Source: Phycisphaerae bacterium RAS2
GTDB lineage: Bacteria; Planctomycetota; Phycisphaerae; UBA1845; UTPLA1
Length of the DNA stretch: 64,000 nt
Reading direction: 5' to 3'
Assembly (NCBI GenBank): GCA_007753915.1
Contig: CP036352.1
Coordinates: forward strand, 1,488,001 to 1,552,000
In this document: positions 18,219 to 21,915 of the stretch, in pieces
Layout of the letters: each line of letters begins with the position of its first letter
How positions within the stretch are numbered: the first letter of the stretch is position 1
Notes under the pieces: generated by a model
Seen by the model: the letters and a program-made list of their open reading frames with translations, nothing else
Database searches by the model: none
Told to the model about the DNA's origin: nothing
Program-made: the position numbers and the translations under genes

Positions 18219-18340
18219 AGATGTGAGTGGGGGTTGAAGGGCCTTTCGATTGCAGCTAACCGCTACGGATAACGGCTTTCTTAGCCGTGGCGCTCCTCCG
18301 GATCGGAACACGGTGTTCCGATCCGGAGGTTTCTTGTTTT
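18219..18340 (+). ncRNA. Putative structured leader or small RNA upstream of pyrK
   Basis: About 120 bases between a promoter and an intrinsic terminator contain no plausible reading frame but have ordered secondary structure. CGCTACGG (18261-18268) can pair with CCGTGGCG (18285-18292), including one G-U pair. The shorter ACGGCT/AGCCGT hairpin (18272-18288) uses the same 3' bases, so the two are mutually exclusive. A 17-bp terminator stem follows. This is the layout of an attenuator or riboswitch, or of a free-standing small RNA. No known riboswitch class or PyrR-binding motif was recognised. pyrK starts 38 bases after the terminator. Confidence 0.45.
18295..18340 (+). terminator. Intrinsic terminator before pyrK
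   Basis: A perfect 17-bp inverted repeat (18295-18311 and 18313-18329, arms beginning CCTCCGGATCGG) with a single-base centre is followed by TTTCTTGTTTT. No plus-strand protein gene lies upstream within the gap, so it terminates either a small RNA or the pyrK leader transcript. Confidence 0.8.
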
Positions 18341-19317: not shown

Positions 19318-19998
19318 TTATTTTTTTTGGACCCGGCGAGGCAATTCGAGGGGGTCTTCCAGAAAAAAATCGGGTGATTCGGCGCGCAGCACGTCGGAAT
19401 TTTGATATCCCCAGGTCACGGCGACGGAAATCATTCCGGCGTTTCGCGCCGTGCGAATGTCGGCGACGGAATCCCCCACGAGCGCGACGTACGCCGGCGA
19501 CTCGCCCATGCTCTGCGCGAGCCGGCGCGCGGCGCGCGGGTCGGGTTTTTTCTCCTCTTCGCTCCGGTAACCGACCACGTCAACGAAGTACGGCATCAGA
19601 CCGAGGTGGCGAACGGATTCAACGGCCAATGCATGCGGTTTGTTGGTCAAGACCGAACAAAGCACGCATTTAGCTTTCAGTAAGTCGAGCATTTGCATGA
19701 TGTTGGGAAACGGCCTCGTTTCGTCGACAACATGTGCCGCGTAGTGCGTTCGCGCGTGCTCAATGAACATCTCCAGCGCGGATTTGTCGAGTTGCGGCAC
19801 CGCGCGGCGGCATAGCGCGGGCAATCCATCGCCGATCCAGCCGCGCGTCTGTTCGCGGGTCACGGGAGGCAATTTCATCGCGCGCAGCGCGTGCGATAGC
19901 GCCTCGTGAATGTCGGGTAACGAGTCCACGAGTGTGCCGTCGAGGTCGAAAATGCACGCGCGTGGGGGTGTGCCGGGAGGTGAGTCGGTCGGATGCAC
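19318..19998 (-). CDS. gph: HAD-family phosphatase, phosphoglycolate phosphatase-like
   Basis: HAD hydrolase of the Gph/PGP type, which removes phosphate from 2-phosphoglycolate or similar small phosphates. The 226-residue product has all four HAD motifs: FDLDGTLVDS near residue 17, the threonine of LTNKPHA, the lysine of KKPDP, and GDSVADIRTARNAG with the acidic residues. The helical cap between motifs I and II (~residues 30-100) is the size expected of phosphoglycolate phosphatases. The gene is convergent with pyrK. HAD substrate calls from sequence are unreliable, so the enzyme class is surer than the substrate. Confidence 0.85.
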   Translation of the reverse strand: MHPTDSPPGTPPRACIFDLDGTLVDSLPDIHEALSHALRAMKLPPVTREQTRGWIGDGLPALCRRAVPQLDKSALEMFIEHARTHYAAHVVDETRPFPNIMQMLDLLKAKCVLCSVLTNKPHALAVESVRHLGLMPYFVDVVGYRSEEEKKPDPRAARRLAQSMGESPAYVALVGDSVADIRTARNAGMISVAVTWGYQNSDVLRAESPDFFLEDPLELPRRVQKK

Positions 19999-20056: not shown

Positions 20057-20084
20057 TTGACAAAGTTTTGGGTCACTCTAGACT
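20057..20084 (+). promoter_or_regulatory. Sigma70-type promoter of the small lysine-rich peptide gene
   Basis: TTGACA at 20057-20062 and TAGACT at 20079-20084 with a 16-base spacer; the -35 box is perfect and the -10 matches four of six bases. It lies 27 bases before the start codon at 20111 and just upstream of the divergent gph. Confidence 0.65.
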
Positions 20085-20110
20085 TTGCGAAAAGAAAGGA
20101 GGTGACGCTA

Positions 20111-20176
20111 ATGGCTAAACGCAAGAAGAAGAGCGCCACCAAGAAGAAAGCCACCAAGAAGAAGGGTCGGAAGTAA
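20111..20176 (+). CDS. 21-residue lysine-rich peptide
   Basis: The product reads MAKRKKKSATKKKATKKK followed by GRK: 12 Lys and two Arg in 21 residues, like the tails of histone-H1-like and nucleoid-associated proteins. The Shine-Dalgarno AAAGGAGGTGA (20095-20105) is essentially a perfect anti-16S match and the spacing to ATG is ideal. A promoter stands 27 bases upstream and a terminator about 100 bases downstream. Longer in-frame starts lie inside the divergent gph and would precede the promoter. It may bind DNA or RNA, or ribosomes. The function is inferred only from composition. Confidence 0.7.
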   Translation: MAKRKKKSATKKKATKKKGRK

Positions 20177-20240
20177 CACTTCCACCCGCGGGTAACTCGC
20201 AGACGTGATCGAAACACTTCGACGCGATCCTGCGACACCC

Positions 20241-20313
20241 GGGTCTTCACATCGTTGAAGACCGACGAATGCATGGAAGGTGCTCCTGCCACGGCGGCAC
20301 CTTCCATTTTTTT
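20241..20313 (+). terminator. Hairpin and intrinsic terminator after the small peptide gene
   Basis: GGTCTTCA and TGAAGACC form a first hairpin around 20242-20263. Then an 11-bp perfect stem, ATGGAAGGTGC (20273-20283) with GCACCTTCCAT (20297-20307), runs into a T tract to 20313. The second stem is a typical Rho-independent terminator. The 3' untranslated region between the peptide stop and this point is about 100 bases; nothing coding is seen there or in 20314-20441. Confidence 0.8.
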
Positions 20314-20441
20314 ATGCGCTTCGCTCGCTCCCGCATTTCTCCCGTTCGATACAAGTCCGCCGACGGAACAATCAAACGCGATTGTTGCGCATCGCCCTCC
20401 GGCGAGTGCTGTACGTTACGACTAATCGCCTTGCGCCAAAC

Positions 20442-21527
20442 CTACGGCTGCAACAGCCACGCACGCGTGAACGTTACATGCTCAATGTGCGTCAGATTCG
20501 CGGAATACACCACGTGGATGCGGCCATCGGCGGATTGCATTGCACTGGGGTAGGAAAGTTGCGGCGGGCCGTCGGCGATGATCTTCGGCGATGACCACGA
20601 TTCGCCGCCATTAGTAGATAGGGCGGCTACCAGCGGCGTGCGCTGCGATGTGCTGTCGTTATAGATGGCAAGCAGTTCGCCGGTTCGCAATCGAATCAGC
20701 TCAAGGCCGCTGTTGGGATTCGGCAAGTCGCCCCGCTCGCGGACAGACCAGCCGATGCCGCACGCGTCGCCCCGAGCCTGAAGCATTGTGCCGGTGTTGG
20801 AGCCGTTTCGCATCAGGGCGAAGAGCGAGCCGTCGGGGAGTTGTGCCGCCGCGGGCTGGAGGTTGAGCGGAATGGAGAACAATTTGCCGGAAGGTTGCCA
20901 GGTCGCGCCGCGGTCGGCGCTTCGCCAGAACTGCGACTGATAGACGGCCTGTTCGTAGGCTGGAAGGATCCAAGTGCCGCCGGCGGTGATGATGGGGCGG
21001 TTGCGCAGAAGGATGCAGACGGCATCGAGCAGCGGGCGCGGAGTCGTCCAGGTTGCCCCACCGTCGGTGGAATCCATTTGCATGGAGCGGCCGAGGCAAA
21101 AGTTGTCGCCGAACATCTCCACGTAGTAAAGGTGCAGCGTGTCGGCATCGTCGCGAAACAAGACGCAATTGGCGTCGGCGAAGTCGAGTTTGTCTGCCAG
21201 AGTCGCCGGTGACGACCATTCATGGCTGCCGGCCGGGCGGCGCGAGGCGACAATTCGTGTGTCGGGCGCCAGCTCGAAGGACCCCGCGCCCCAGGCGACG
21301 AGCAGGTCGCCGCCGGGTAATTCGACGATGGAAGCCGTGTGGTTGTAAGGATAGGGCGGCGCGCCCGTGGGAGTTGAAGAGATACTCCCGTTTGTGAACT
21401 CCGCCGGTAGGAAATCGTCCGGCTGCGGGGCCGGCGGAAACGCCGTTGGGCAGGACAACAGCGCGAACCAATCCTGAATTCCGCAGCCGCTGCTTGAAAA
21501 TGCGATCGACGCTGCCAGAAAAATCAT
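20442..21527 (-). CDS. Sialidase-like (BNR/Asp-box) beta-propeller lipoprotein
   Basis: The 361-residue product has a lipoprotein-like signal (MIFLAASIAFSSSGCG, cysteine near residue 15) and a six-bladed propeller of the exo-alpha-sialidase-like family. Three Asp boxes are visible: STDGGATW (~156), SADRGATW (~200) and STNGGESW (~305). The C-terminal PPQLSYPSAMQSADGRIHVVYS is also characteristic of this group. The ATG at 21527 gives the signal peptide; a longer frame to 21884 would cross a perfect palindrome and lacks a signal. Related planctomycete proteins are annotated as neuraminidases or glycosyl hydrolases, but the true substrate is unknown. Confidence 0.75.
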   Translation of the reverse strand: MIFLAASIAFSSSGCGIQDWFALLSCPTAFPPAPQPDDFLPAEFTNGSISSTPTGAPPYPYNHTASIVELPGGDLLVAWGAGSFELAPDTRIVASRRPAGSHEWSSPATLADKLDFADANCVLFRDDADTLHLYYVEMFGDNFCLGRSMQMDSTDGGATWTTPRPLLDAVCILLRNRPIITAGGTWILPAYEQAVYQSQFWRSADRGATWQPSGKLFSIPLNLQPAAAQLPDGSLFALMRNGSNTGTMLQARGDACGIGWSVRERGDLPNPNSGLELIRLRTGELLAIYNDSTSQRTPLVAALSTNGGESWSSPKIIADGPPQLSYPSAMQSADGRIHVVYSANLTHIEHVTFTRAWLLQP

Positions 21528-21915
21528 TGCCGCGAAGAACTTGCCATGTGGAGCGCACCCCACCGGAATCCGACGGATTGCAATCCGTCGGATTCGTGCC
21601 TGGGCTTGTCGGCTCCGTACCTGAATCCGTCGGCCTTTCAGTGAGTGTGCGTCAAACATGGAATCAAATCGCGCGGAAGTGTTGCAGGAGTTATGGGGCA
21701 TGACGGCTGCCAACTGGTTGGTGCCGGGTGGATAAGATACGATGACCAGCCGATGAATCCCAGCGCCGCGCGAAAGCGATAAACTGGGTTCCGGACAGCC
21801 ATTTGCGCGCTGGCCGCAATGCATAAACGAAGGGTGCGTCGTCGACGCACCCACAGACGGAACCGCAAATTCGCACCCCGCCAATGGTGCTCACGTATCT
21901 GATGTGGTTATCAAA
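21528..21915. other. Intergenic gap between the sialidase-like gene and wecB
   Basis: This 388-base divergent gap should hold promoters for both neighbours. The only clear element is the palindrome at 21566-21595. A minus-strand frame stays open through it but its translation looks unlike protein and has no ribosome-binding site at its early starts. No convincing promoter pair was found for wecB. Confidence 0.4.
21566..21595. repeat. Palindromic element, copy A
   Basis: A perfect 14-bp inverted repeat (GAATCCGACGGATT, then GC, then the complementary arm). A related palindrome at 39017-39046 has the same length, the same GC centre and the same core CGGATTGC...ATCCGTCGG, with compensating changes in the arms. 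A further half-copy (GAATCCGTCGG) lies near 21623. The pattern fits a REP-like dispersed palindrome. Confidence 0.75.

Follow-up and report, generated by a model that had tools for sequence, protein, structure and literature searches.

Does a reading frame of 21 residues, surrounded by what look like all of the signals needed for its expression, encode a functional peptide, mark a functional RNA, or do both? We addressed this question for a locus in Phycisphaerae bacterium RAS2, using a 64,000-nt window (the whole stretch of DNA that was analyzed, positions 1488001-1552000 of the 4.32-Mb single-contig genome) and comparisons to relatives.

Layout of the cassette

The cassette is flanked by two genes on the opposite strand, encoding a HAD phosphatase (19318-19998) and a BNR-repeat protein (20442-21884). 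Its elements, in window coordinates, are:

20057..20084, + strand: promoter-like sequence (TTGACA at 20057-20062, a 16-nt spacer, and TAGACT at 20079-20084)
20093..20105, + strand: Shine-Dalgarno sequence AGAAAGGAGGTGA
20111..20176, + strand: candidate gene for a lysine-rich small protein, peptide MAKRKKKSATKKKATKKKGRK (recurrence in relatives and third-position bias)
20189..20241, + strand: 3'-UTR hairpin H1 (fold of 20177-20317)
20242..20263, + strand: 3'-UTR hairpin H2, GGTCTTC...GAAGACC (fold of 20177-20317)
20273..20307, + strand: terminator hairpin H3 with a conserved apex (models R1 and R2, covariation, and fold)
20288..20295, + strand: apex GCCACGGC, with a CACG tetraloop (20290-20293) closed by two pairs
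20307..20313, + strand: T7 tract of the terminator (fold)

A sequence-only reading of this locus had proposed a complete expression cassette, and most of the parts that it named are present. The frame runs from the ATG at 20111 to the stop codon at 20174-20176 and contains two arginines, as described, and 11 lysines rather than the 12 reported. The Shine-Dalgarno sequence, which we take to be complementary to the 3' end of 16S rRNA, was found, as were the two hairpins and the terminator. The promoter fared less well. The -35 box is perfect, but the -10 box, described as good, has four of six consensus letters, and a match of this kind (10 of 12 consensus letters for the pair) is by itself at the level of chance in the region (1 found versus 1.1 expected). 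It is conservation across relatives that lifts the cassette above chance. The sequence-only reading had suggested a look through planctomycete genomes for short KKK-rich frames whose upstream signals are conserved. TTGAC lies 110 to 25 nt 5' of 54 of 57 relatives' frames (one of the three exceptions is masked), and GAAAGGAGGT precedes 48 of the 57.

H3 has the G+C-rich stem and following U tract that define an intrinsic terminator, termination itself being predicted; it was not among the terminators found by a simple terminator scan of the region. A bulge (CCT, 20285-20287) separates the apex from the H3 stem. The inner two pairs of the apex are partly open in the minimum-energy single-strand fold, and we assign them as structure ourselves. 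The RNA from 20091 to 20318 had a folding energy of -87.2 kcal/mol, compared to -61.0 (sd 4.4) kcal/mol for shuffled sequences (z of -5.96; 0 of 200 shuffles). In its fold of lowest energy, the 3' arm of the terminator is the pairing partner of the Shine-Dalgarno region, and its centroid structure consists of separate hairpins. There were no tRNA or tmRNA genes in the 64-kb window. Elsewhere in the window, at 18295-18329, a hairpin of 16 pairs closes a loop of 3 nt and has a T-rich stretch behind it.

The hairpin is widespread in the order and found in part of the class

A DNA search matched the cassette in 38 of 61 genomes, with some of the matches covering the AAG-rich part only. A covariance model (R1) built for the 45-nt terminator matched 90 of the order's 114 genomes, and 56 of 65 among those of good quality. 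Second matches within a genome were mostly antisense of the same place, along with a few weak matches on other contigs. We examined 79 of the 90 genomes and left out the other 11. A second hairpin model (R2), built from 79 hairpins and containing no frame, matched 136 genomes in a set of 397 taken from the class, and the hairpin is thus far from universal there. R2 also matched eight of 392 genomes drawn from the phylum. Four of the eight were outside the class, and we rejected these four as chance terminators that have neither the CACG apex nor a lysine-rich frame. The terminator pattern was also found in 11 named records, labeled Phycisphaerae, Phycisphaerales, Planctomycetota, or uncultured planctomycete. 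R1, R2, and the apex model R3 (described below) were all built on apex-bearing loci, so loci that have lost the apex are under-sampled in these counts.

A lysine-rich frame usually lies beside the hairpin

Outside of one family (f4, described below), a lysine-rich frame was located just 5' of the hairpin in 57 of 59 loci of the order, 55 of them with MAK. These frames were 18-113 residues long and ended 24-191 nt ahead of the hairpin. The two exceptions were G048, where the sequence is masked by N, and G030, whose only frame there is short and weakly basic. Results were similar in the class outside the order: 53 of 55 loci matched by R2 had a lysine-rich frame (15-140 residues, 20-166 nt ahead of the hairpin), and 51 of the frames start MAK. 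The exceptions here were a frame of 12 residues, too short for the length cut (G272), and a locus with neither frame nor apex (G312). Using a strict MAK rule, we found a frame at 104 of 132 hairpins versus 1 of 943 control windows taken from these loci, and f4 accounts for 20 of the 28 hairpins without one. With a looser rule, the numbers were 109 of 132 versus 9 of 954. Loci with runs of N (G022, G048, and G208) and the four out-of-class matches were left out of this comparison.

Changes within codons were concentrated at third positions. In five genomes of family f1, compared over 17 codons, we counted 4 pairwise differences at first, 8 at second, and 57 at third codon positions; this test used gap-free frames only, and two of the five are identical. 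In the first six codons after the ATG, all 16 members of f1 gave 91, 172, and 360 differences, from pairs that are non-independent. Among relatives, the frames vary from 12 to 140 residues and are almost pure Lys, Ala, Thr, Arg, and Val, and the MAK start and the strong Shine-Dalgarno sequence are kept over this range of lengths. Together, the third-position changes and the recurrence across the class support the notion that the frame is under selection.

Some loci depart from the common form. In family f25, the frames in four of eight loci (L156, L163, L174, and L188) have 12-16 residues, for example MAKKKAKKKVAKKKK, and they still have the Shine-Dalgarno sequence and the hairpin. The short frame of G030 (L099) is lysine-poor with a weaker Shine-Dalgarno sequence, the hairpin is kept, and there is no lysine-rich frame after smc. 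The sequence 5' of the hairpin reads N in two genomes (L093, L128, L034, and L035). Besides the cassette, only ribosomal protein L11 matches the pattern GAGGT-MAKxKK in the genome of the window; this pattern is narrow, matching in just 10 of 40 genomes.

Searches of Pfam and NCBIfam with frames of 21, 78, and 113 residues gave no match up to an E value of 1, the low complexity of the frames weakening the search, and PHROGs and PDB contained no match to the lysine-rich proteins. Because there is no family match, we use "H1-like" for a resemblance in composition alone. Rfam release 15 had no match in the window, with one sub-threshold match at the element that was far below the cut-off, and it found five tRNAs only in 20 related loci. 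Within the open-licence literature, we found nothing on this element by title or start of abstract.

A nearly constant apex in the hairpin

The hairpins share a geometry of stem, bulge of 3-4 nt (longer in f4), GC[CACG]GC, and stem. Among the 79 hairpins, 95.5% of cells were paired, versus 85.5% in shuffles, and both sides had changed in 12 of 14 pairs. The apex hardly varies while the stems change by compensation: GCCACGG is present in 75 of 79 hairpins from the order and in 50 of 55 from outside the order.

The apex is not confined to the terminator. In family f8, a copy of GCCACGG lies upstream in 24 of 29 transcripts, 21 of which have both copies and three the upstream copy only. By script, 23 of the 24 upstream copies are enclosed by a stem (none in G104, and four pairs only in G099); three upstream copies in f12 had no enclosing stem by the same script. 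We also searched the 23 genomes of the order without an R1 match. A pattern search found the frame in nine of these, and seven of the nine have the apex in an upstream hairpin; of the remaining two, the apex letters are in a weak stem in G110 and missing from G018. The other 14 gave no lysine-rich frame with this pattern, which also misses known frames. The frame was present and the apex absent in G018, G144, G217, and G349. Because the apex sits in upstream hairpins that are not terminators, the apex rather than the terminator as such seems to be the conserved element.

We used an apex model (R3, alignment A6) made from 49 of 66 distinct apex copies, each with at least six of seven outer pairs. 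The pairing of 98% in these copies is biased upward because they were preselected for outer pairs. Across 36 genomes, the best R3 match was at the locus in 23 and elsewhere in eight, and five had none. R3 misses the f4 hairpin, with its longer bulge. Matches away from the locus were weak (E values of 4.9e-4 or worse, and of 4.9e-4 to 0.2 for the best match in the eight genomes). The four that we inspected had no lysine-rich frame nearby and lie within frames of at least 390 codons, three of which, in our judgement, read like real proteins; the fourth, rich in G+C, is ambiguous. We set aside a regulon of CACG hairpins, of which there was no sign in the 36 genomes, and also an anti-Shine-Dalgarno role for the stem, whose sequence is replaced in families f13 and f17. 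In the genome of the window, one other match to GCCACGGC...TTTTT was found, and it does not fold into the apex.

The hairpin and a lysine-rich frame are at separate loci in family f4

All 20 of the f4 loci that we examined have the hairpin without the lysine-rich frame. In its place, 5' of the hairpin, there are variable hairpins and what appears by eye to be promoter-like sequence. The same 20 genomes have a lysine-rich MAK frame of 15-96 residues that starts 31-59 nt after the stop codon of smc, compared to 0 of 36 genomes of other families. The identity of SMC was confirmed by Pfam. Four of 60 rows were set aside in this comparison: G059, for contig ends, and G120, G094, and the second match of G086, for which there was no recognized smc end; G028 has no smc match. 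The smc-linked frame has a different Shine-Dalgarno sequence, of the GAGGTTGCGCC type. The frame has a single alternative place in these genomes, and for this reason it is likely to be the same gene moved; sequence this simple puts orthology beyond proof. The split is probably derived, since families outside the order have the linked form. A tRNA gene lies no more than about 1 kb from the stand-alone hairpin in five of ten f4 loci scanned (L073, L077, L083, L084, and L089).

Based on the covariation and the f4 loci, we conclude that the RNA structure is conserved and appears to be selected independently of the frame. The sequence-only reading had proposed either a basic peptide expressed at a high level or an RNA of dual function, and the third-position changes, the recurrence, and the RNA covariation indicate selection on both parts. 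It had also named an RNA conserved without its frame as a sign against coding. We did not see this in general; f4 has such an RNA, and has the lysine-rich frame behind smc.

A proposed transcript with two products

We believe, with a probability of roughly 0.6, that one transcript from its own promoter gives rise to two products under separate selection, one a small basic protein and the other an RNA hairpin. The 5' part would serve as mRNA for an H1-like protein, small and rich in lysine, whose probable role is to coat nucleic acid, the chromosome being the most likely target. The remainder, on the 3' side, would be a structured RNA in which the stem, bulge, and GC[CACG]GC apex, located in the terminator hairpin or in one upstream, most likely form a putative binding site for a partner. 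The comparison of genomes shows that both the frame and the RNA structure are conserved, that they are closely linked outside f4, that the apex can occupy either of two hairpins, and that f4 has its own arrangement. From these, we infer that the cassette is transcribed and translated, that the protein binds nucleic acid, that the apex serves as a binding site, and that the RNA acts in trans. The 12-16-residue frames of f25 are short for a protein that compacts DNA and count against this explanation. So do the negative family searches, the partly open inner pairs of the apex, the genomes that have the frame and lack the apex, and the different Shine-Dalgarno sequence of the f4 frame.

We know of no need for a fixed loop sequence in terminators, which counts against an ordinary gene for a small H1-like protein in which the apex would be retained to make termination efficient or the mRNA stable, and we find such a gene to be quite improbable as the whole explanation. 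It would fit the conserved frame, the long stem and usual T-rich tract of H3, and the account of CACG as a loop of a stable type in the text that we cite (PMC5633025). However, f8 also has the apex in a hairpin that is not a terminator, f4 keeps it although no lysine-rich frame precedes it, and the other terminator-like match in the genome of the window does not form it. The converse, that the locus makes a functional RNA only and that an AAG-rich spacer happens to read as a frame, would explain the f4 RNA without a frame and the weakly basic frame of G030. We consider it very improbable, given the third-position bias, the start and ribosome-binding signals kept over such different frame lengths, and the lysine-rich frame that f4 keeps behind smc.

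The lysine-rich protein, or another protein, might instead bind the hairpin in its own mRNA and tune translation or decay. Such autogenous control in cis agrees with how closely frame and apex are linked outside f4, with the weakness of the apex-model matches away from the locus, and with the pairing of the Shine-Dalgarno region with the terminator in the minimum-energy fold of the whole RNA. Yet in f4 the mRNA of the lysine-rich frame does not contain the hairpin, so pure control in cis is not the whole function unless the f4 RNA is a decoy, and the stem sequence able to pair with the Shine-Dalgarno sequence is replaced in f13 and f17. We think that this explanation is unlikely.

A gene for a ParA-type ATPase is 3' of the cassette in seven of 16 f1 loci (identified by Pfam in one). 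Neighbors differ in other families, the window with its phosphatase and BNR-repeat protein among them. The smc (f4) and parA neighbors, which we count in favor of the two-product explanation, suggest a connection to chromosome organization, in a phylum whose nucleoids have been described as unusual. The two-product reading can be extended. Protein and CACG-hairpin RNA might be subunits of one chromosome-organizing ribonucleoprotein of the Phycisphaerae, in which the protein or a third factor binds the RNA, and the RNA brings the protein to the nucleoid, or regulates it there, with SMC and ParA; the subunits would usually come from one transcript and, in f4, from two loci. This is speculative, and we regard it as rather unlikely. 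The findings would bring to light a recurring gene for a small basic protein, together with an RNA motif for which Rfam release 15 gave no match, and the natural split in f4 makes separate roles of protein and RNA testable.

Comparison with known systems

SgrS/SgrT and SR1/SR1P are dual-function small RNAs. The cassette has two of the three defining features of such RNAs, a small protein that appears to be under selection and an RNA that appears to be selected independently of the frame. VcdRP of Vibrio cholerae, as presented in the cited text, combines a 29-residue protein with a base-pairing RNA (PMC8672173). The cassette resembles this type in its short transcript, tiny frame, and conserved RNA part. 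It differs from VcdRP as described there in that its frame can have anywhere from 12 to 140 residues, almost all of them Lys, Ala, Thr, Arg, and Val, the conserved RNA is the apex of a hairpin, and the two parts are separate in f4.

In the chlamydial protein Hc2, the lysine-rich repeats vary strongly in length, giving proteins of 165-237 residues according to the portion that we cite (PMC2848022). The relatives' frames similarly consist of lysine-rich repeats in variable number, the hallmark shared with Hc1 and Hc2; in contrast to Hc2 as described there, they are shorter and match no curated family model in Pfam.

For the ribonucleoprotein, a precedent is naRNA4 (REP325), which works with HU, a nucleoid protein of E. 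coli, by the account cited (PMC6907758). It provides a model in which a structured RNA and a basic nucleoid protein act together. That RNA derives from a repeat element, whereas the RNA here is linked to a protein gene, and we claim no relation in sequence.

The apex loop matches the YNMG consensus, and the tetraloops of this class include a site of protein binding: in domain d of the enterovirus oriL, CACG has been proposed as a ligand of protein 3C, in the part of the work that we draw on (PMC5633025). The loop type alone is common to the two, and stem, bulge, and partner differ. Because CACG belongs to a loop class that has been discussed as a ligand of a protein, we would simply guess that the RNA described here has a protein as its partner.
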